Below are positions 1 to 61,622 of a DNA stretch of 64,000 nucleotides, in pieces (position 1 is the stretch's first letter; every line of letters starts with the position of its first letter). Source of the DNA: Deltaproteobacteria bacterium (GTDB taxonomy: Bacteria > Desulfobacterota > Syntrophobacteria > Syntrophobacterales > Syntrophobacteraceae). The stretch covers positions 1-64,000 of the forward strand of contig JAAYVE010000055.1 in the NCBI GenBank assembly GCA_012517315.1, written 5' to 3'. Position numbers and translations under genes: made by a program. The notes under the pieces were generated by a model. That model had not been told where the DNA came from and made no database searches. It saw only the letters and a list, made by a program, of their open reading frames with translations.

Positions 1-2832
1 GAGGAACAGGCCCTGGCGGAGGCCCGCAAATGCCTCGACTGCATGGTCTGTTGCGAATGCCTCCAGTGCGTGGATGCATGCCTTGCCAAGGCGATCATTC
101 ACAGTGATGAACCCGCAGTGAGAGAGATCCATGTGGGTGCGATCATACTGGCTGCCGGTTTTCAGGCCTTTGATCCTGCACGCTTTGAATCCTATTCGTA
201 CGCATCCCACCCAAACGTAGTAACGGCTTTTGAATTCGAACGGCTTCTGAGCGCAGGGGGACCCACTTCGGGACATCTGGAGCGTCCCTCCTCGATCCAG
301 CTGGACGGCCAAATTCGTCAGCTGGAAAACGAGTGGAGCAAGCTCCTGAAAACCTGCCGGCAGCTGGAGGAAAAGCACGGAACAACCACGCAGAAGATTG
401 CTCAGCAGTATTATGGTGCAACGCCAGAAGATCCTGAGATGGCTTTTTGGATGTCCTTGGCGGAGAAGGTCCGCAAGGTGGAACAGGAAATCGCCCGTCT
501 CAAAGAGAGGGCCGCTGCGGAGCACGAACCTAGAAAGATCGCATGGCTCCAGTGTGTGGGCTCAAGGGAAATCAACCGTTGCGACAACGGGTACTGTTCC
601 GGGGTCTGCTGCATGTATGCCATCAAGGAGGCCGTCATTGCCAAGGAGCATTCAAAGGAAGAGCTGGAAGCGGCCATTTTCTTCATGGACATGCGAACGC
701 ACGGCAAAGAGTTCGAGCAGTACTACGAAAGGGCCAGGGAAAATGGCATACGGTTCATCCGATCTCGCATCCACAGTGTCGAACCCTGTGCCGACTCGGA
801 CGACTTGCGTCTGGCCTATGTGACCGACTCAGGGAAAATGGTCGAAGAGGATTTCGACATGGTGGTCCTCTCGGTAGGTCTTGAATCGCCGCCGGGAATT
901 CAGGAATTGGCCCAAAGGCTCGGAATCGAGCTGGATCACTACAATTTCGCTCGCACCACCAGTTTTAACCCTGTTGAAACATCGAGGCCCGGAGTCTTCG
1001 TGTGCGGGGTCCTCCAGGGACCGAAGGACATACCGGTCTCGGTCATGGAAGCATCCGCTGCCGCCGGAGCAGCTGCAACTCGTCTTGCCGCCGCCCGCAA
1101 CACCCTGGTGAAAAAGAAGACATTCCCCGAAGAGCGCGATGTCAGTTCCGAGAAGCCTCGCATCGGGGTCTTTGTGTGCAATTGCGGTGTGAACATCTCC
1201 AGCGTGGTCCGTGTTCCTGAGGTGGCCCGCTATGCCGCTACCCTGCCTCATGTTGTATACGTTCAGGAGAATCTGTTTTCCTGCTCCCAGGATGCTCAAG
1301 ACCGCCTTGTGAGTGTCATCAAGGAACAGAACCTGAACCGGGTTGTCGTGGCTGCATGCTCACCGAGAACACACGAGCCCCTGTTTCAGGAGACGATGCG
1401 CAACAGCGGTCTGAACAAATATTTGTTTGAACAGGCCAACATTCGTGACCAATGCTCCTGGGTTCATGCAGGGGACCCGGACGCAGCGACGGAGAAGGCG
1501 AAAGATCTCGTTCGCATGGCGGTTTCCCGGGCAGCCCTCATCGAACCCCTGCCCATGCCCTCCGTCCCGGTAACTCCAGCTGCGCTGATCGTCGGAGGCG
1601 GAATCGCCGGCATGGTCGCCGCCCTCACCCTTGCCCGCCAGGGGTTCAAGGCCCACATCATCGAAAAAAAGGGTTTCCTGGGAGGCCATGGCCGCAAGGT
1701 CCGCACCACCTGGAAGGGCGAAAGCGTGGAGGAATTCCTGGCAGACCTCGTGAAGGAAGTGAACGGGCACCCCGACATCGAGGTGTATCTCAACTCCGAG
1801 GTCACAGCCTCTTCCGGTTATGTGGGAAACTTCCGCTCGGTCATCACATCGGGGGACGGAGCGGGTATCCGGGAACTGGAGCATGGGGTGACCATCCTTG
1901 CCACCGGCGCCCACTCCCTCAAGCCGGACGAGTACCTCTACGGGAAGAACGGGCGCGTGTTCCGCTGGCATGAATTGGATGAGGCCTGGGACCAGGATCT
2001 GGTGAAAAACGCCCAGTGCGCGGTGTTCATCCAGTGCGTGGGATCCCGGGAACCTCAACGTCCACACTGCAGCCGCATCTGCTGCACCTTTTCCGTACAG
2101 AAGTCCATCGAGCTCAAGGAACGCAACCCGGAGATGGATGTTTACATCCTCTACAGAGACATGCGCACCTATGGTGAACGGGAAGACCTCTACAGAGAAG
2201 CCCGACGCCGGGGGGTGCTCTTCATTCGATACGATCTGGAAAACAAACCCGAGGTGCAGGAGACGGAGAGTGGGGGGCTGGAAGTGACGGTGATCGACCA
2301 TGTGCTCCAGCGTCCCGTCGTGCTCAAACCGGATTTCGTCACCCTGGCAACCGCCATCGAAACCCGCGACATCGAGCAGTTGGCTCAGCTTTTCAAGGTT
2401 CCTGTGAGCCAGGACAGTTTTTTCCTGGAAGTCCACATGAAGCTCAGGCCGGTGGACTTCGCCACAGACGGAGTTTTCGTGTGCGGCCTCGCCCACTACC
2501 CCAAGCCCATCGACGAAAGTATCGCCCAAGCCCAGGCGGCGGCGGCCCGAGCGGCGACCATCCTTGCGCAGAAAAGCATCGACGTGGACGGGGTGGTGGC
2601 CCATGTGGACCAATCCCTCTGCCGGGGCTGCGGAAAGTGCGTTGAAGTATGCCCTTATGGGGCTCCCCGGTTGACGGAAATCGGCGAGGACATGCGCATT
2701 TCCGAAATCCAGGAGGCCCTTTGCAAGGGGTGCGGTGCCTGTGCCGTTGCCTGCCCTACCGGAGCGGCGGCCATTCGACATTTCAACGACCGGGAGGTCC
2801 TCACCATGGTCGAGGCAGCCCTGTGCAAGTGA
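1..2832 (+). CDS. HdrA-like flavin/iron-sulfur protein HdrA1 (5' end outside window)
   Basis: The reading frame is open from the first base, so the N-terminus is missing; 943 residues are visible. It is a double-lobed HdrA-type protein, expected to be a cytoplasmic electron-transfer subunit carrying FAD and [4Fe-4S] clusters. Visible residues 11-28 form a dense Cys cluster (CLDCMVCCECLQC). The first lobe has the HdrA motifs QCVGSRE and CSGVCCM and ends near residue 370. The second lobe repeats the family plan: IGVFVCNCG at its start, a GxGxxG FAD motif (VGGGIAGM) near 530, QCVGSRE again near 680, and two ferredoxin-like clusters (CRGCGKC, CKGCGAC) near 880-930. Residues about 101-175 are a charged, heptad-like stretch absent from ordinary HdrA. 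The two lobes match the separate downstream proteins HdrA2 and HdrA3, so this is the fused form. Family assignment is strong; the donor and acceptor are not known from sequence. Confidence 0.85.
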   Translation, partial: EEQALAEARKCLDCMVCCECLQCVDACLAKAIIHSDEPAVREIHVGAIILAAGFQAFDPARFESYSYASHPNVVTAFEFERLLSAGGPTSGHLERPSSIQLDGQIRQLENEWSKLLKTCRQLEEKHGTTTQKIAQQYYGATPEDPEMAFWMSLAEKVRKVEQEIARLKERAAAEHEPRKIAWLQCVGSREINRCDNGYCSGVCCMYAIKEAVIAKEHSKEELEAAIFFMDMRTHGKEFEQYYERARENGIRFIRSRIHSVEPCADSDDLRLAYVTDSGKMVEEDFDMVVLSVGLESPPGIQELAQRLGIELDHYNFARTTSFNPVETSRPGVFVCGVLQGPKDIPVSVMEASAAAGAAATRLAAARNTLVKKKTFPEERDVSSEKPRIGVFVCNCGVNISSVVRVPEVARYAATLPHVVYVQENLFSCSQDAQDRLVSVIKEQNLNRVVVAACSPRTHEPLFQETMRNSGLNKYLFEQANIRDQCSWVHAGDPDAATEKAKDLVRMAVSRAALIEPLPMPSVPVTPAALIVGGGIAGMVAALTLARQGFKAHIIEKKGFLGGHGRKVRTTWKGESVEEFLADLVKEVNGHPDIEVYLNSEVTASSGYVGNFRSVITSGDGAGIRELEHGVTILATGAHSLKPDEYLYGKNGRVFRWHELDEAWDQDLVKNAQCAVFIQCVGSREPQRPHCSRICCTFSVQKSIELKERNPEMDVYILYRDMRTYGEREDLYREARRRGVLFIRYDLENKPEVQETESGGLEVTVIDHVLQRPVVLKPDFVTLATAIETRDIEQLAQLFKVPVSQDSFFLEVHMKLRPVDFATDGVFVCGLAHYPKPIDESIAQAQAAAARAATILAQKSIDVDGVVAHVDQSLCRGCGKCVEVCPYGAPRLTEIGEDMRISEIQEALCKGCGACAVACPTGAAAIRHFNDREVLTMVEAALCK

Positions 2833-3042: not shown

Positions 3043-3462
3043 ATGTCAGCGGAGTTCGAGCCGAGAATCGTCGCCTTTTGCTGCAACTGGTGCGCCTATG
3101 CCGGGGCCGACTTGGCCGGCGTGAGCCGGTTGCAGTATCCTCCCAACATTCGGGTGATCCGGGTCATGTGCTCGGGCCGGATCTCGCCGGATTTCATCCT
3201 CAAGGCTTTCCAGCTGGGGGCGGATGGGGTCCTCATCAGCGGCTGACACATTGGTGACTGCCATTACCTGGACGGTAATGAGAAAGCCAGCCGCACCGTG
3301 GAAATGACCCGCGAACTCCTCGCCCTCATGGGCATCGACAACGAGCGCCTGGCCCTCGAATGGGTTTCATCTGCAGAAGGCGCGCGCTTCGCTCGAATCG
3401 TGACCGATTTCACCAACAAGATCAAATCAATCGGGAAGTCTCCATTGGGGGTGGCTGCATGA
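3043..3462 (+). CDS. MvhD/FlpD-family iron-sulfur subunit, selenoprotein (Sec68)
   Basis: MvhD carries a [2Fe-2S] cluster and passes electrons between a hydrogenase or other donor and HdrA. A strong ribosome site (GGAGGGAGAG) precedes ATG 3043. Translation meets TGA at 3244-3246 (codon 68), and the same frame then runs on to TGA 3460-3462, giving 139 residues, the normal size of the family. The TGA falls in [17 protein letters not shown], where relatives have GCHxGDCHY, so it replaces a conserved cluster Cys. Other ligand-type residues are C13, C14, C17, C43 and C73. A 7-bp stem with a 5-nt loop lies at 3262-3280, correctly placed for a bacterial SECIS. The stop overlaps the ATG of the next gene (ATGA). 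Read as a plain stop, the product would be a useless 67-residue fragment. Sec insertion is inferred from sequence. Confidence 0.9.
3262..3280 (+). promoter_or_regulatory. SECIS-like hairpin for MvhD1
   Basis: CATTACC (3262-3268) and GGTAATG (3274-3280) are perfect complements around the loop TGGAC. The stem starts 15 nt after the TGA at 3244-3246, in the range known for bacterial SECIS elements read by SelB, and the loop contains GG. The hairpin lies inside the coding sequence, as is normal in bacteria. No folding energy was calculated. Confidence 0.75.
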
Positions 3463-4580
3463 GCATCGAAGAAGCCATCAAGGCCTACCAGACCTATTAC
3501 TGCCTGGATTGCGGCGTATGCACGGGAAGTTGTCCCGTCTCCAGGGTCAACCCCGGTTTTTCACCCCGCCTGATGGTGGAAAAGGCGCTGCTGGAACTGG
3601 GCGAAGAACTGCTTCAGGACCGTGAGCTCTGGTCCTGCCTCACCTGCAGCCGCTGCTTCGAGCGGTGTCCGACCCATATCAATTTCCCCGAGTTCATGCG
3701 AAGGATTCGGGAAGAAGCCACCCGGAGAGGCTTCGGCCCTGTTCTTGCCCATCACGGGATGCTCCAGAGTGTCATGGAGCTGCAAACCCAGGGAATCCAC
3801 CAGAAGAAGACTCAATGGGCCAGGGAATCCGGCCGCATTGCAGAATCGGGGGACATCTTTTTTTTCGTGGGCTGCATGCCCTATTTCCAGGTCATCTTCC
3901 GAGATATCGGCGTGGACAGCCTCTCCATCAGCCGCAGGGTAATCAAGGTTCTCAACGCAGCGGGAATCGAACCCATCGTGTCCGACGACGAGGTGTGCTG
4001 CGGTCATGACATGTTGTGGAACGGAAAAACGGAGGTCTTTCTGCAGCTGGCCCGGCGCAACGTAGAGGTGATCCGCAGCTCGGGGGCGAAGCAGGTGGTT
4101 TTCAACTGTCCCGAGGGGTACCACCTGTTCCGGAATTTCTATCCAGAGTACTTGGGTCCCCTGGATTTCGAGGTGGTGCATTTTTACGATTTCGTGGAAA
4201 GGTTGCTTGCCGAAGGCCGCATCGCACTGGGCAATGGTGGAGGGGTCTACACGTACCATGATCCCTGCCGTCTCGGGAGGATGGCCCGCATTTTCGACAG
4301 CCCCAGGGGCATTCTGGCACAAATCCCCGGGGGTGAAGTGGTGGAGATGGAGAGAAACCGGGAGAACGCTCTTTGCTGCGGCACGAGCGGCTGGGCGAAC
4401 TGTTCCGTCGGTTCCAAGCAGATCCAGGTGGAACGTCTCAAGGAGGCAAAAGCCACGGGGGCTCACACCCTGGTCACCGCCTGCCCCAAGTGCCAGATCC
4501 ACCTGACCTGCGCACTCAGCAACATGAACCTGGATCTGAAAATCGCAGACCTGACCACCCTCATCGCGGACGGGGTCTGA
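3459..4580 (+). CDS. HdrD-like protein: HdrC ferredoxin domain fused to HdrB CCG domains
   Basis: This 373-residue protein would be the disulfide-reducing or acceptor-binding arm of the Hdr complex. The HdrC-type part has two [4Fe-4S] motifs, C15/C18/C21/C25 and C60/C63/C66/C70. The HdrB-type part has two CCG-like repeats: VGCMPYF with VCCGHDMLW and FNCPEG, then YHDPC with LCCGTSGW and ACPKC. In methanogens the paired CCG motifs bind the two unusual [4Fe-4S] clusters that cleave CoM-S-S-CoB; bacteria have no such disulfide, so the substrate here is unknown. ATG 3459 overlaps the MvhD1 stop by 3 bases, implying translational coupling. HdrB and HdrC are separate genes in most HdrABC systems, while HdrD is naturally fused. 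Confidence 0.88.
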   Translation: MSIEEAIKAYQTYYCLDCGVCTGSCPVSRVNPGFSPRLMVEKALLELGEELLQDRELWSCLTCSRCFERCPTHINFPEFMRRIREEATRRGFGPVLAHHGMLQSVMELQTQGIHQKKTQWARESGRIAESGDIFFFVGCMPYFQVIFRDIGVDSLSISRRVIKVLNAAGIEPIVSDDEVCCGHDMLWNGKTEVFLQLARRNVEVIRSSGAKQVVFNCPEGYHLFRNFYPEYLGPLDFEVVHFYDFVERLLAEGRIALGNGGGVYTYHDPCRLGRMARIFDSPRGILAQIPGGEVVEMERNRENALCCGTSGWANCSVGSKQIQVERLKEAKATGAHTLVTACPKCQIHLTCALSNMNLDLKIADLTTLIADGV

Positions 4581-4619: not shown

Positions 4620-6152
4620 GTGAGCAACGACGTTTTGGTCATCGGAGGCGGGATCGCCGGAATTCAGGCGGCTTTGGACCTGGCTGAAATGGGCATTCAG
4701 GTGCACATGGTGGAGAGGCTCCCCAGCATCGGCGGCAAAATGGCCCAGTTAGACAAGACCTTTCCCACCAACGACTGCGCCATCTGAATTCTCTCGCCCA
4801 AGCTGCTGGATGTCGGTCGACATCCCCGAATCAATCTCCTGGCTTACAGCGAGGTGGAACAGGTCAGCGGTGAAGTGGGGGCTTTCCAGGTAGCGGTGCG
4901 CAAGAAGGCCCGTTATGTCAACGAAAACCTCTGCACCGGCTGTGGGGCGTGTGCGGAGAAGTGTCCCACCATGGTGGTGGATGTTTTCAATGCAGGCCTG
5001 GGCAATCGTAAGGCCATTTACAAGTATTTTCCCCAGGGCATCCCTTCCGTTTTCACCATCGACGCAGCCGCCTGCCGCCAACTGGGGCAGGGGAAGAAGT
5101 GCGGCGTGTGTGCAAAGGTCTGTCAGGCCAAAGCCGTTGACTACGATCAAAAGGACACACTCATCCAACTGGAGGTGGGGGCGGTCGTCATCGCCACCGG
5201 CTACGAGGTTTTCGATCCCTCGGTCATCCCCGAATACGGGTACGACCGCATCCCCAATGTGGTGACGGCCCTGGAGTTTGAGCGCCTACTGAGCGCGAGC
5301 GGCCCCACGGCAGGGCACCTGGACCGGCCGTCGGAATTGGCCTTGGTCAAGGAAATGGAAGAGGCTGAGAAAGAGCACAAAAAGCTTCAGCGCCAGGTGA
5401 GCCAACTGGAGGAGAAGCACGGAAAACCGTCATCTGAGATCGTCGCCGCGTTTCAATCGGGTACGTTACCGGACGATGCGGACCTGCGGAACTGGGCTCT
5501 TCTCGCCCAGGATCTGGCCTCCCTTGAGGCACGACTGGATTCCATGAACCGCCGCAAGGCCACCGCCTCGGTTGCTCGAAAGCTCGCTTTCATCCAGTGT
5601 GTGGGTTCAAGGGACTTCCGCTTCAACCCCTTCTGTTCGTCCTACTGCTGCATGCATTCCGTCAAGGAAGCGATGATCGCCCACGAGCACGACAACGGCG
5701 TCCACTCTTCCATATTTTGCATGGACCTTCGCGCAGTGGGGCGGGGATTCGAGGAATACAAACTCCGGGGGGGCAAGCAGGCCAACATCCGGTATATACG
5801 CGGGCGGGTGGCGGAAATCACACAGGATGAGGCGCTCAACCCCGTGGTTTGGTATGAATCCACCCAGAATCGGCAGGTCGTGCACGAAACCTTCGACCTG
5901 GTGATTCTCGCCACGGCATGCGTTCCATCCCCCGGCGCCGCGGAACTGGCCCGCCAGTTTCAGGTGGAATTGGACCGCAACGGTTTCTTCAAAACGGACC
6001 CACTGGCTCCCCTCAACACTAGTCGACCTGGTGTTTTCGTGTGCGGATGTGCCCAGGGCCCCATGGACATCCCTGAATCCGTGGCCCAGGCCAGCAGCGC
6101 GGCTGCCCGTGCGGCCGAAATTGTCGCCCCTGCCAGGCAGGCGGTTGGGTGA
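4620..6152 (+). CDS. HdrA2, Sec-containing HdrA lobe (Sec56)
   Basis: GTG 4620 with GAGG upstream begins a 510-residue protein if TGA 4785-4787 (codon 56) is decoded as Sec. The N-terminal FAD motif [14 protein letters not shown] is followed by [22 protein letters not shown]; canonical HdrA has Cys at the U position. Two iron-sulfur sites follow: C105/C108/C111/C115 and C152/C161/C164/C168. Then come QCVGSRD, the CCMHSVKEA element and the closing [13 protein letters not shown] motif. Residues about 240-318 are a charged coiled-coil-like insertion between the RPS element and the QCVGSRD strand. The usual HdrA N-terminal domain and C-terminal ferredoxins are missing; they are supplied by the next gene, HdrA3. 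HdrA is a known selenoprotein in methanococci, so Sec here has precedent. Confidence 0.9.
4808..4825 (+). promoter_or_regulatory. SECIS-like hairpin for HdrA2
   Basis: GGATGTC (4808-4814) pairs perfectly with GACATCC (4819-4825) around the loop GGTC. The stem starts 20 nt after TGA 4785-4787. The loop GGUC resembles the G/U apical loop recognised by SelB. Distance, stem length and loop agree with the bacterial SECIS pattern. Confidence 0.78.
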
Positions 6153-6169: not shown

Positions 6170-7849
6170 TTGAGTGACCAGATTCGTATTGGAGTGTTTG
6201 TCTGCGATTGCGGGAGCAACATCGCGGGATACGTGGATGTGAAGGCATTGGCGGAGTATGCCAAGACCCTGCCCAACGTCGTCTACGTCAAGGAGAACCT
6301 GTACACCTGTTCCGAGAGCGGGATCAACGAGATCAAGGCCGCCATTCGGGAGCAGAGTCTCAATAGGGTGGTGGTGGCATCCTGCACGCCCCGCACTCAT
6401 GAACCCCTCTTCCGGGGGACCTGCGAGGAGGCCGGACTCAACCCCTATCTCTTCGAAATGGTGAACATCCGGGACCAGTGTTCCTGGGTGCACATGCAGG
6501 AACGGGAATCAGGAACCAACAAGGCAAAAGACCTCATCCGCATGGGTGTGGCCAAGGCGGCACTGCTGGAACCGCAGGAATCCATCAAGTCGGAAATGGA
6601 TCCCAATGCCCTGGTCATGGGCGGGGGAATCAGCGGTATGACCGCCGCCCTCGCCCTCGCCAACCGGGGCTATCAGGTTTACCTGGTTGAGAAGCAGGCC
6701 CAGCTCGGCGGTCTTCTTCTCCAATTGGACACGCTGGGGCCCTCCGGTGTGGATGCGGCCGCTTTTGCCGCAAGCCAGGCGGAGCTCGTCCGCAACCACC
6801 CTCGGATCCGACTCATGACTTCCACCCAGGTGAAAGATATCAGCGGGTACATCGGGCATTTCAAGGTCACGACGGCCAGCGACGGGAAGGAGGAGCAATT
6901 CGGGGTCGGCGTGGTCATCGTCGCCACAGGAGCCCAGATTCTCAAGCCTCACGGCCTGTTCGGCTATGACGGCGAGCGAGTGATCACTCAGCTAGAGCTG
7001 GAAGCCCGTTTCAAGAGGGGAACCTTTTCCGCCGGGAACGTCGTCATGATCCAATGCGCCGGTGCGCGCATCGAGGAGCGAAAGTACTGTTCCCGCATCT
7101 GCTGTATGGTGGCCCTGAAAAATGCCATCCAAATCAAGGAAACACACCCCGGCACAGGTGTCCGCGTACTCTACCGGGACATCCAGGCTTACGGGACGGA
7201 GAACGAAGAGATGTACCGCCGTGCCAGGGAACTGGGGGTCATCTTCATCAACTACGATGTGAACGTGCCGCCCAAGGTGCATGGGGAAAAGGTCACGGTC
7301 ACCCACCAACTGCTGGGGAGGGAACTGGATCTCCCGGCGGACCTGGTTGTCCTGTCGACACCGCTCATCGCCGGGGAGGACAACGAAGCCATTTCCAAGT
7401 TGCTCCGCGTTTCCCTGGATGAAAACAAGTTCTTTCTGGAAGGCCACGTGAAACTCAAGCCGTTGGATTTTGCCACGGACGGGGTGTACCTGTGCGGCAA
7501 CGCCCACTACCCTGCAACGGTGCGGGAAGCAATCTCCCAAGCCCTGGGCGCTGCGTCCCGGGCGTCCATTCCCTTGGCCAAGGGGGTGATGACGGTCGAG
7601 CCCATTGTCTCGACGCTGGTGGATGAGGACGCCTGCCGCGGTTGCGGCCTTTGTGTGGCCCTTTGCCCCTACGGTGCCCTGGAGATCGTCCGGACGGAAA
7701 AGGGACGTAAAGTGAGAGTGATTCCCGTGGCATGCAAGGGCTGCGGCGTGTGTGCCGCCACCTGCTATCAGCACGCCCTGTCCATCAACTCTTACACTGA
7801 CAGGCAGATCGCGGAGCAGATCAGCGCGTGTCTCGAGTCGTCAGGATAA
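6170..7849 (+). CDS. HdrA3, second HdrA lobe with C-terminal ferredoxin domain
   Basis: This 559-residue protein starts at TTG 6170 with GAGG upstream, 17 nt after HdrA2. It opens with the HdrA N-terminal domain (IGVFVCDCG, SCTPRTHEPLF, RDQCSWVHM). An FAD motif (VMGGGISGM) follows near residue 145, then the CSRICCM element near 305. The C-terminal end has two [4Fe-4S] motifs, CRGCGLC and CKGCGVC, near 485-535. The FPTxDCxxC iron-sulfur insertion of a full HdrA is absent, so it complements HdrA2. Together the pair equals the fused architecture of HdrA1, and it also resembles the QmoA/QmoB split of sulfate reducers. It probably receives electrons through the C-terminal ferredoxin clusters and bound FAD. 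Confidence 0.85.
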   Translation: MSDQIRIGVFVCDCGSNIAGYVDVKALAEYAKTLPNVVYVKENLYTCSESGINEIKAAIREQSLNRVVVASCTPRTHEPLFRGTCEEAGLNPYLFEMVNIRDQCSWVHMQERESGTNKAKDLIRMGVAKAALLEPQESIKSEMDPNALVMGGGISGMTAALALANRGYQVYLVEKQAQLGGLLLQLDTLGPSGVDAAAFAASQAELVRNHPRIRLMTSTQVKDISGYIGHFKVTTASDGKEEQFGVGVVIVATGAQILKPHGLFGYDGERVITQLELEARFKRGTFSAGNVVMIQCAGARIEERKYCSRICCMVALKNAIQIKETHPGTGVRVLYRDIQAYGTENEEMYRRARELGVIFINYDVNVPPKVHGEKVTVTHQLLGRELDLPADLVVLSTPLIAGEDNEAISKLLRVSLDENKFFLEGHVKLKPLDFATDGVYLCGNAHYPATVREAISQALGAASRASIPLAKGVMTVEPIVSTLVDEDACRGCGLCVALCPYGALEIVRTEKGRKVRVIPVACKGCGVCAATCYQHALSINSYTDRQIAEQISACLESSG

Positions 7850-8009
7850 ACGCGGTATCGAGGGCACGAGAGTTTTGGTTTGTGGTTTTTTCGCCCTTCA
7901 CAGTAGAAGGGTGCCCGGGATGGTCTCCCTCCCCAGGGAAATACTCCTGGGCTTGAGGGAAGGGATGACTCAGAGACTAGAACTCTTGACACTGACGGAG
8001 GTGGAGGGA

Positions 8010-8798
8010 ATGTCCGATTTTACACCGAAGATCCTGGTGTTCTGCTGCACATGGTGAGGCTACGCCGCGGCAGACTTCGCTGGAGTTTCCAGGATGCAAT
8101 ACACTACGGATGCTCGCATTATCCGTATCATGTGTACCGGCCGGGTCGATCCCACTATGATATCCGACGCCTTCCTCAAGGGGGCCGACGGTGTGATGGT
8201 CGTGGGCTGTCATTTCGGGGACTGCCATTACATCACGGGCAACTATCAGGGAAAGATCAAGGTGGGGATCGCGGCCCGCGCCCTTGACTACGTGGGTCTC
8301 AACCCAAAGCGCGTGTTCTTCGGGCAGTGCTCTTCCGCCGAAGGGGAACGTTTCGTCAAGATGGTGACCGATTTCGACAAGGACATCCGCGAGATTGGCC
8401 CCCTCGGGACGGGAGACCGCCTCCCACCCCCCCAGCTCCATGAGAAGATCGAGGTAGCTCACACGGCGCTCGCCAAGGAAAAAATCCGCTGGGTGGTGGG
8501 AAAATTCACCGAGTTCACCACCAAGGGAAACAAATACGGAGAGCGATTCACAGAACACGAAATGTGGCGGACTCTGGACACCATCGTCATGGATGAGGTG
8601 GCCACCTATGAAATCATGAGAGAACTGAACCGAGGCCCCGTATCGGTGAAGACCCTATCCTCAAGGCTCAAGCTTCCCTCAGCCCACGTGTTGAAATACG
8701 TCTTGGCTTTGCAGCGTAGAGGGTTTGCAGAGCTTGCGGGCATCGAGGGGACCTCCCCTCTGTACCGTATCGCCCGGCAGCAGGTCGATGCAGCATAG
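8010..8798 (+). CDS. MvhD2 iron-sulfur subunit, selenoprotein (Sec16), with C-terminal extension
   Basis: ATG 8010 (GGAGG upstream) runs through TGA 8055-8057 (codon 16) to a stop at 8798, giving 262 residues. The start FCCTW-U-GYAAAD matches [12 protein letters not shown] of MvhD1, so the UGA replaces a cluster Cys, here at a different site from MvhD1. C12, C13, C42, C67 and C72 are present. The MvhD domain ends near residue 130. The remaining 130 residues are not part of normal MvhD; about 185-255 (VATYEIMREL, SRLKLPSAHVLKYV, LQRRGFAEL) looks like a winged-helix fold, which is inference. A start codon downstream of the UGA would remove the conserved cysteines, so Sec readthrough is the sensible reading. 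A stem-loop follows at 8080-8092. Confidence 0.88.
8080..8092 (+). promoter_or_regulatory. SECIS-like hairpin for MvhD2
   Basis: CTGGA (8080-8084) and TCCAG (8088-8092) pair around the loop GTT, starting 22 nt after TGA 8055-8057. The stem is shorter than those of the other two genes, but spacing and the G/U loop fit a bacterial SECIS. Confidence 0.6.
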
Positions 8799-8834
8799 GT
8801 TTTCATGCTTCCACACTTTCGGGAGGATGCAATT

Positions 8835-10511
8835 GTGCCAGGAAATCGCGTGATCATATTCGGAGGTGACCCGGCCGGCTTGGCTGCGGCGCTCCAGCAG
8901 GCCGAGGCCGGAAAAGAAGTCACCCTTGTGGAGCCTTCCCCGAGCCTGGGAGAGGGGGGACGAATCCCCCAGACTCGTGTCGTGGAGGGGGGGCTGCCTG
9001 TGGAGGACGTGAACCTCGAAGCCGTCCGCCGTCATCCCAATATCCGGGTCATCACCAACGCAACGATTGAAAGGGTGAGGAATTCCAACGGCGCTTACCA
9101 ATTTCGCATCAGGCGGCGTTCTCCAAGGGTTCATGCGGACAGGTGCAACGACTGCAAGGCATGCATCCGGGTGTGCCCCGTGCATATGTATGACGATTTC
9201 AACGAGGGACTGGGATTCCGCACCGCCATCGACTATTTCAACCCCAAAACGGGGGAATACAACATCTTCAAGGAAGATATGCCCATCTGCCAGGCCACCT
9301 GTCCCGCCAACCTGGACATCCGGTCCTACGTAGGGCTCATCGCCGATGGCAAATATGCCGAATCCTTGGCCAAGATTCGGGAAAGGCTCCCCTTTGCCCT
9401 TTCCATCGGCAGAGTTTGTCCTCACCCCTGCGAGACGGCATGCAACCGAGGTCTGATGGACCAGCCCATTTCCATTTGCACCCTCAAGCGTTTTGTGGCC
9501 GACTGGGAAATGAACCATCAGATCCCAGCTCCCGTCGAGGTACCCGACACTTTCCACCCCGAGCGGGTGGCCATCATCGGGGCCGGCCCGGCGGGACTCA
9601 CCTGCGGGTATTTCCTGGCAAAGGCAGGTTACAGGTCGGTTTGTTTTGAAGCGCTACCCGAACCGGGCGGTATGTTCCGGTACGGCATACCTGAATACCG
9701 CCTCCCCACCCCCACTCTCATGCACGAAATCGATTGGATCCTGTCCCACGGGGTGGAACTGCGTTGCAACGTGCGCATCGGCCGCGATATCGCCTTCGAA
9801 GACCTGCTTAGGGAATTCGATGCCGTCTTCATCGGTGTGGGAGCGCACAAAGGGATGAAGCTGCAGATCAAGGGCGAGGACATGGAAGGGGTCATAGACG
9901 GGGTCGATTTCCTCCGGGACGCGAACATGGGAAAACCCATCAACGCGAAAGGCAAAGTCATCATCATCGGGGGCGGCAACGTGGCCATGGACGCAGCCCG
10001 CGTCAGCTGGCGGGAAGGATTCGAGGAAGTCCACATACTCTACCGGAGAACCAAGAGGGAGATGCCGGCGAGCCCTTGGGAAATTGAAGCCGCCGAGCAC
10101 GAGGGGATCAAGATTCAGTACCTCGTGGCCCCCATTGAGGTCCTGGGAGAAAACGGCCGCATGACCGGACTCAAATGCCTGCGCATGGAACTGGGGGAAC
10201 CCGACGCCAGCGGCCGGCGCAGACCGGTCCCCATCGAGGGCTCCGAATTCGTGGTGGAGGCGGAAACGCTCATACCCGCCATCGGCCAGAGGCCGGACAT
10301 TTCCTTTGTGCCGGAAGGCAGTGGGCTTGAGATCACCCGCTGGAGCACGTTCGCCGTGGACCGGGAGACCTTCATGACGAATGTGCCCGGAGTCTTTTGC
10401 GCGGGTGACGTGGAGACAGGGCCCGACATTGCCATCCGGGCGTGTGCCGGAGGCCGGAAGGCCGCCCTTGGAATCGTGAAGTACCTGGAGGCAAAGCGGC
10501 AGAGCAGATAG
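8835..10511 (+). CDS. HdrA N-lobe remnant joined to a GltD/NfnB-like NAD(P)H flavoprotein
   Basis: GTG 8835 is chosen because GGGAGG sits 8 nt upstream; an ATG at 8805 has no such site. The product is 558 residues. Residues 1-145 follow the HdrA plan: an altered dinucleotide motif (IFGGDPAGLAAA), then CNDCKACIRVCP, then a segment matching HdrA2 after its first cluster. The stretch around FPTNDCAIU is lost. From about 155 it is a GltD-type protein: CQATCPANLDI, VCPHPCETACNRG, FAD motif IIGAGPAGL, NADPH motif IIIGGGNVAMDAARVS, and the closing FCAGDVETGPD. Such proteins oxidise NAD(P)H or reduce NAD(P)+. In this operon it likely links the Hdr complex to pyridine nucleotides; that is inference. 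Confidence 0.85.
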   Translation: MPGNRVIIFGGDPAGLAAALQQAEAGKEVTLVEPSPSLGEGGRIPQTRVVEGGLPVEDVNLEAVRRHPNIRVITNATIERVRNSNGAYQFRIRRRSPRVHADRCNDCKACIRVCPVHMYDDFNEGLGFRTAIDYFNPKTGEYNIFKEDMPICQATCPANLDIRSYVGLIADGKYAESLAKIRERLPFALSIGRVCPHPCETACNRGLMDQPISICTLKRFVADWEMNHQIPAPVEVPDTFHPERVAIIGAGPAGLTCGYFLAKAGYRSVCFEALPEPGGMFRYGIPEYRLPTPTLMHEIDWILSHGVELRCNVRIGRDIAFEDLLREFDAVFIGVGAHKGMKLQIKGEDMEGVIDGVDFLRDANMGKPINAKGKVIIIGGGNVAMDAARVSWREGFEEVHILYRRTKREMPASPWEIEAAEHEGIKIQYLVAPIEVLGENGRMTGLKCLRMELGEPDASGRRRPVPIEGSEFVVEAETLIPAIGQRPDISFVPEGSGLEITRWSTFAVDRETFMTNVPGVFCAGDVETGPDIAIRACAGGRKAALGIVKYLEAKRQSR

Positions 10512-10615
10512 GGGGCATCAGCTCCACATACATTCCGGGTCTTACGGCGCCCCCCCTGAATGACCGTCGATGCGGGGGCCGCCCTCTTCACCAGAAAGAC
10601 ACAGGGATTCGTACC

Positions 10616-11503
10616 ATGATGTATGAAAAAAAGGGACGCTACATCGTTGAATTCCAGGATATCCCCAAGGCGCGGCAGCACCAGATCGAAATCGACGTAG
10701 AAGAGCGCCGTGGGAACTACAAGGAAGTGGAACTGGGTTTCGACGAGGAAAGGGCCTTGAATGAGGCCAAACGATGCCTCAGCTGCCGACGCTGTCTCGG
10801 CTGCGCCCTGTGCTGGGCTGAGTGCAAACCGGAAGCCATCGACTTCGAGATGGAAGACGAGGTTTTCGAACTGGAGGTCGATGACGTGATTGTCGCACCG
10901 GGAGTGGAACGCGACGTGGAACGGATCGGCAGGCATTTCGGCTTGGGGAGCCACCTCAATGTCGTCACCGACCTGCAGATGGAGCGGATGCTCAGTGACA
11001 CGGGTCCCAGCAGGGGGCTCGTGATCCGTCCCCTGGACGGGGAAATCCCCAAAAGGATCGCCTGGGTGCAGAGTTACGAATCCGCGTCACCCCCGATGCA
11101 CCGGGCAGCCCTCTGCCTGGCTGTGAACGAAGCCATTCAGGTGCACGGAAAAATCGAAGGGGCGTGCCTCCAGATTTTTTCCAGGAACATTCAGCCCTTC
11201 TTCACTGAAAACGAAAAGCTCGTTGCTGGACTCTCAGGATTCCGGATGGATGAGGGGGCGGTGGAGTCCCTGGAACCCCAGGATGACGGAAGTCTCAAAC
11301 TCACCCTGGCCATCAACGGAAATAAGGAGGAGAAGACCTTCGACCTAGTGGTTCTGCTGACACAGCCTCGCATATCCAAAGATGCCCAAGCCTTGGCCAA
11401 GAGCCTGGGAATGACTCTGAATTATGCTTCTTTCCTCGCCGGGGAGGACGGAGGTCTTCTCTCCACGGAGAAGGACAAGGTCCAACTGACGCCTGTTCGC
11501 TGA
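10616..11503 (+). CDS. degenerate HdrA C-lobe fragment
   Basis: The 295-residue product aligns with the second part of an HdrA lobe and with the visible start of HdrA1. FDEERALNEAKRCLSCRRCLGCALC corresponds in order to the Cys-rich linker at the start of the window. It continues with the NVVTDLQMERMLSDTGP element. Where HdrA has QCVGSRD and CSxxCCM, this protein has WVQSYESASPP and HRAALCLA, so those conserved Cys are lost. No coiled-coil insertion is present. With the preceding gene it looks like one HdrA lobe split by a GltD domain. The ribosome site is weak, and two in-phase ATGs (10616, 10619) are possible. It closes the operon; a structural or scaffold role is a guess. Confidence 0.75.
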   Translation: MMYEKKGRYIVEFQDIPKARQHQIEIDVEERRGNYKEVELGFDEERALNEAKRCLSCRRCLGCALCWAECKPEAIDFEMEDEVFELEVDDVIVAPGVERDVERIGRHFGLGSHLNVVTDLQMERMLSDTGPSRGLVIRPLDGEIPKRIAWVQSYESASPPMHRAALCLAVNEAIQVHGKIEGACLQIFSRNIQPFFTENEKLVAGLSGFRMDEGAVESLEPQDDGSLKLTLAINGNKEEKTFDLVVLLTQPRISKDAQALAKSLGMTLNYASFLAGEDGGLLSTEKDKVQLTPVR

Positions 11504-61177: not shown

Positions 61178-61319
61178 ACTGCACCCTGTTTGCTTGGTCC
61201 TCATGGGCCGAGGAATCGACCGTTACCCCGAGGCAATCCACCCCCCTCTCCAACCGGCGGCGATTGCCTTTCTCGTGGGACAGCACCCGCAAAGGGCCGG
61301 AACACGAGAACCCATAAGG

Positions 61320-61482
61320 CATCAGGCAGGTTTTCTGACTCACGGATTCACCTACTCGCCGGGCCTTCCCAGCTCAGTTCCTCTGAACCAGTGGCATTTC
61401 CGGCTTTCGTCCCCGTTCACAGCGGCGGGACCATGACGGACTTACACCGTCTTCCCTTTTAAACCTTGGCTCTCTTAAGGTA
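61320..61482 (-). promoter_or_regulatory. cobalamin riboswitch
   Basis: The minus strand carries the B12 aptamer landmarks in order: AAAAGGGAAGACGGTG, TAAGTCCGTC, GTCCCGCCGCTGTGAACGGG and, at the 3' end, the B12 box TCAGAAAACCTGCC. It precedes cobH and the whole cob/btu operon. The ends are approximate. Confidence 0.92.
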
Positions 61483-61622
61483 CCTGATCCTGTCCTGCGT
61501 TTTGATCGTGATCCTGCCACCGGACCTCTATCGCCATTCCTGATTTGCCAAGCTCGGGATTGCTGAGAATGTTTCTGCATGAGGGTGGGGGAGGCGGCAA
61601 AAGGACCGTGGCAATCACATCC

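Follow-up and report, generated by a model that had tools for sequence, protein, structure and literature searches.

The question raised by the reading frame at positions 8010..8798 (plus strand) of the window, i.e., of the whole 64,000-nucleotide stretch of DNA analysed here, is whether the UGA codon that interrupts it is translated and, if so, which residue is placed there. The frame, designated mvhD2, runs from ATG 8010 to TAG 8796-8798, is preceded by a ribosome-binding site GGAGG (7997..8001, 8 nt before the ATG) and contains a single internal stop, TGA 8055-8057, which begins 45 nt after the A of the start codon. Read through, it encodes 262 aa, comprising an MvhD/FlpD [2Fe-2S] domain (residues 1-134) and a C-terminal extension (residues ~140-262), and the UGA occupies codon 16, in the CxxU part of an FCCTWU motif (...ILVFCCTW-U-GYAAADFAGVSR...). 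The preliminary description regarded the product as a selenoprotein with selenocysteine (Sec) at this codon, and the position and context of the UGA that it gave can be read directly in the frame. Its expectation that gene callers would choose the internal ATG 8094 was borne out by a mechanical ORF caller, which returned 8094-8798 (234 aa); with a start at that codon, the protein lacks the FCCTWU/CCxxC motif as well as the initial strand of its FlpD domain. A post-UGA start would thus remove the putative cluster-binding N-terminus of MvhD2, and the annotation is corrected here.

Profile and structure comparisons place the segment before the UGA within the protein. The Pfam FlpD/MvhD profile (PF02662) matches MvhD2 residues 8-130 over its whole length (E 9e-48, 161.8 bits, cut-off 22.3), and, since the match spans these residues, the segment upstream of the UGA is part of the FlpD/MvhD domain, the conserved Cys motifs of which are present in MvhD2. 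The MvhD chains in the PDB align from MvhD2 residue 1 and have Cys at position 16 (5odc_D: MSEWEPKIIGFCCNWC...); the alignment of residues 1-134 extends along the entire MvhD chain of the Mvh-Hdr, Fdh-Hdr and Elp-Hdr complexes (5odc, 7bkb, 8rvu; fold match E 1e-12), which, unlike MvhD2, has no C-terminal extension. The score against the model of VhuD proper (NF045873) is 119.4 bits, below the curated cut-off of 215 bits, and by this measure MvhD2 is a relative of VhuD and not VhuD itself. The extension is predicted (mean pLDDT 72) to be helical at first and to finish in a winged-helix-like part, for which a Foldseek search revealed only weak matches to winged-helix regulators (E ~3e-3).

MvhD2 was sought in 40 genomes, namely its own and 39 relatives, and full-length orthologues with 65-90% identity were found in 13 genomes of the class besides its own, each with exactly one internal stop, which is TGA at codon 16. 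When 297 genomes of the phylum were searched with a profile, 11 further genomes belonging to three other families were added, again with one TGA each, at codon 16; 20 loci of a named genome collection (several of them from genomes already counted), including those of Desulforhabdus sp. TSK and Desulfoferrobacter suflitae, carry the UGA at codon 16 as well. No full-length orthologue with Cys at codon 16 was present among those found, and the comparison with Cys homologues, proposed in the preliminary description, was supplied by the PDB chains mentioned above. At the level of sequence comparison, these results confirm that the MvhD2 UGA is a translated codon.

Downstream of the UGA, a comparison of orthologues delineated a nearly nucleotide-invariant SECIS region covering codons +7 to +14 (8076..8099, plus strand), with the core hairpin CUGGA(GUU)UCCAG at 8080-8092, exactly where it had been reported as short but well placed; 22 nt separate the UGA from the stem and 27 nt from the loop. 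The 13-nt hairpin CUGGAGUUUCCAG is found unchanged in 22 of the 27 distinct sequences, which come from several families, and the other five have a different, well-placed hairpin, CUUCGC-N-GCGAGG, in the same place. Codons for invariant amino acids also have invariant nucleotides in 7 of 10 cases in the stretch from +4 to +14 vs. 1 of 59 elsewhere (hypergeometric 8.5e-7). The published bSECIS model has G in the first two loop positions followed by G/U, a loop of 3-9 nt, a stem of 4-16 bp, a distance of 16-37 nt from the UGA and a minimum free energy (MFE) of no more than -7.5 kcal/mol (PMC13188914). The mvhD2 hairpin agrees with it in the loop (GUU, G first and then U), stem (5 bp) and spacing (27 nt); the calculated MFE is -4.0 kcal/mol for the 13-nt hairpin, -6.4 for nt 16-42 after the UGA and -11.2 for 43 nt, so the energy limit is reached only with the longer stretch. 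In the SECIS folding suggested as a check, the fold of the single sequence is not significant (z = +0.2), 5.5% of synonymous variants of mvhD2 forming a 5-bp stem in an allowed place; what is decisive is the comparison of orthologues, with their conserved UGA and frozen hairpin codons. Single-sequence folding was therefore dropped as a proof, and the case for the SECIS rests on comparison. No covariation was found inside the hairpin, because it hardly varies, and the sequence CUGGA-GUU-UCCAG is absent from Cys homologues of the motif.

The genome, which is that of a sulfate-reducer-like bacterium, encodes the machinery for Sec insertion, including SelA, a canonical SelB (contig C25), two copies of SelD, one of which itself contains an in-frame TGA, and a tRNA-Sec with full score and the anticodon UCA (contig C56); a lack of such machinery, which the preliminary description considered fatal to its proposal, is thereby not what was found. 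A full-scoring tRNA-Sec was not found in two fragmented relatives that have the mvhD2 UGA (G001 and G010), which is put down to incomplete assembly. What looked like a fourth SelB on contig C53 is an EF-Tu frame at the contig end, and several RF01852 matches correspond to tRNA-Ser, -Leu, -Tyr and -Trp of the ordinary kind. Taken with the conserved UGA, the frozen hairpin codons and the two further UGA genes of the operon described below, this machinery supports the assignment of MvhD2 as a selenoprotein with Sec at codon 16. Translation would start at ATG 8010 and proceed through codon 16, where tRNA-Sec would be delivered by SelB bound to the in-frame SECIS at 8080-8092. It is very probable, judging from these comparisons, that mvhD2 is read through its UGA in this way and yields the MvhD subunit of an Hdr-type bifurcating complex; the residue inserted is almost certainly Sec, and we infer for Sec 16 the role of a cluster ligand or redox residue.

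The genome also has components that could give the UGA another meaning. A second Sec-like tRNA with the anticodon UCA lies directly upstream of a gene for a SelB variant, SelB* (C43:53507-55682; L027, L083, L178); it has an 8-bp acceptor, a 4-bp T stem with a bulged A, G1:C72, A73 and an encoded CCA. Sets of selC*, SelB* and CysRS* (the system of Mukai et al. 2017) have been described in Syntrophobacterales and Desulfobacterales, and reviews present them as a proposed route for Cys insertion at UGA (PMC7609411, PMC9437257). Of this system, the present genome shares the UCA tRNA next to SelB*, but it deviates in the A73 of this tRNA and in a CysRS paralogue that is unlinked and poor in motifs. 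Two SelB* proteins are encoded, and they might insert another residue; the second one (C28:2151-5402; L028, L181) is 45% identical to the first, has no tRNA nearby and adjoins an HdrA-MvhD fusion that is apparently frameshifted and interrupted by a transposase gene. The CysRS paralogue (C34:19106-20356; L167) has 424 aa, matches only positions 1-405 of the 466 of the cysS model, lacking the C-terminal part, and has WNIQDPAVI in place of ECSAM; it is possibly the CysRS* partner or has another function.

With such components, the UGAs of mvhD2 and of the other operon genes may, in this genus, have two readings, Sec via SelB and tRNA-Sec or another residue, probably Cys, via the A73 opal selC*-like tRNA and SelB*, with the selenium supply choosing between them; this seems rather unlikely. 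A reading of the mvhD2 UGA as Cys by the selC*-type opal tRNA and SelB*, either wholly or as a low-selenium fall-back, is less probable still. The UCA tRNA beside SelB*, the two SelB* proteins, the partial CysRS paralogue and the sets known from related orders speak for it, but the opal tRNA has A73, as opposed to the U73 of tRNA-Cys, and the paralogue is devoid of the canonical ECSAM motif. Moreover, of the 14 close genomes that have the mvhD2 UGA, just three possess SelB* (G000, G001 and G003), and one of these (G003) has a selC* with the anticodon GCA, which cannot read UGA; the other 11 have the same UGA and hairpin. Since these 11 genomes are without SelB*, Sec would be the ancestral reading, and it is therefore the ordinary Sec system that would maintain the UGA and the hairpin. 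The MvhD genes in SelB* neighbourhoods also argue against Cys insertion at UGA: a search for UGA genes beside SelB* gave only Cys codons in MvhD. On this evidence, the selC*/SelB*/CysRS* system is not needed to explain the conserved mvhD2 UGA.

Among the relatives, the selC*-type tRNA of G001 and G034 has UCA with A73, and that of G003 and the f2 genomes has GCA with U73. In relatives, the selC*/SelB* loci frequently have as neighbours MvhD genes with CxWC encoded by TGT (L182 1020-1323, L180 3613, L087 432, L089 348), as though SelB* belonged with the Cys type of MvhD. The occurrence of an opal selC*-like tRNA and two SelB* alongside the Sec system makes this species a test case for the assignment of UGA.

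A start at ATG 8094, or at another codon after the UGA, with the upstream part left untranslated, is most improbable. Besides the output of the ORF caller, it would have in its favour the GGAG at 8082-8085, which sits 8 nt before ATG 8094. However, codon 29, to which this ATG corresponds (M29), is CTA, ATT or ATC (Ile/Leu) in 12 of the 27 distinct orthologous sequences, so ATG 8094 is not the start shared by the orthologues; residues 1-15 are conserved, with synonymous changes from ATG 8010 on, whereas the DNA before ATG 8010 is not conserved, and the truncated protein would be left without CCxxC and the initial strand of its FlpD domain. A GGAGG-like site precedes the start at ATG 8010 in most orthologues despite the otherwise unconserved upstream DNA. 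A convincing start after 8057 in orthologues, which had been named as evidence that would count against Sec, did not appear on comparison, the N-terminus and the UGA being always kept. That the TGA is a nonsense mutation or a sequencing error in a decayed gene, for which nothing but the stop itself speaks, can practically be dismissed, as the same TGA is found in independently sequenced genomes of several families and the frame is conserved on both sides of it.

The gene belongs to an operon, all on the plus strand, that contains hdrA1 (43..2832), encoding an HdrA2-like flavoprotein of 929 aa; mvhD1 (3043..3462); a gene for an HdrD/TfrB/GlpC-like Fe-S and CCG-domain protein (3459..4580); hdrA2 (4620..6152); hdrA3 (6170..7849), encoding an HdrA-like flavoprotein with two [4Fe-4S] sites, directly upstream of mvhD2; a gene for a GltD/NfnB-like NAD(P)H oxidoreductase (8805..10511), directly downstream; and a gene for an HdrA/NfnB-fragment-like Fe-S protein (10442..11503), the last one of the conserved order. 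This order is kept as far as the contigs reach. Two other genes contain an in-frame UGA: mvhD1 in the second motif (3244-3246, SG-U-HIGDCHY), with the SECIS CAUUACC(UGGAC)GGUAAUG, and hdrA2 (4785-4787, NDCAI-U-ILSPK), with the SECIS GGAUGUC(GGUC)GACAUCC. Both hairpins have 7-bp stems, with the loops UGGAC and GGUC, respectively; both codons are TGA in every relative in which the region is long enough to read, and in two relatives (L122, L124) an A-U pair of the mvhD1 stem is replaced on both sides by G-C. Thus, one operon has three separate Sec sites (two in MvhD and one in HdrA) kept across the family, which suggests that the dependence of electron bifurcation on selenium is a fixed trait of the enzyme. 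Gene callers would truncate both mvhD1 and hdrA2.

The product of mvhD2 would be the MvhD (FlpD/FrhD/VhuD) electron-transfer subunit, with Sec where the N-terminal CCxxC motif has its last Cys, and its setting would be the Hdr-type electron-bifurcating complex encoded by the same operon. In the Hdr complexes with solved structures, the [2Fe-2S] cluster of MvhD is positioned close to the bifurcating FAD, and the subunit links the donor module with HdrA (PMC12350162). By analogy, MvhD2 probably passes electrons between the HdrA2-HdrA3 flavoproteins and a donor, which is plausibly, but not necessarily, the GltD/NfnB-like NAD(P)H module.

Sec-containing proteins of this family have been known since 2006, when 19 sequences of Sec-containing FrhD were reported, eight of them in Syntrophobacter fumaroxidans (PMC1794560), and mvhD2 is a further example. 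Four Sec-containing MvhD proteins are encoded by Desulfobacterium autotrophicum HRM2 (PMC2702500), and a 2026 review lists CxxU as the Sec motif of the MvhD/FrhD family (PMC13188914). MvhD2 belongs to the same family as the MvhD/FrhD/VhuD selenoproteins (PF02662) of Deltaproteobacteria and methanogens, with its Sec likewise in CxxU, and shares their association with HdrA, hdrA genes being present in the same conserved operon. It differs from them in the C-terminal extension of ~130 aa with the winged-helix-like end, and, unlike the known MvhD selenoproteins, it is found with HdrA2-HdrA3 and the GltD/NfnB-like gene and with no adjoining MvhA/MvhG. No separate description of a subfamily with this extension and the HdrA2-HdrA3/GltD context was found in the literature. 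Sec-containing HdrA (CxxU), a protein different from MvhD2, has its counterpart in the operon hdrA2, which has such a Sec site.

Elsewhere in the same genome, an MvhD paralogue (C33:118970-119407; L125, 7125) has a UGA at the motif-1 site (FLCTW-U-AYAAAD), followed by a different downstream sequence, and UGA is found at motif 2 at C33:114026 and C28:293185. The window also contains a cobalamin riboswitch (61308-61502, minus strand, 116 bits).
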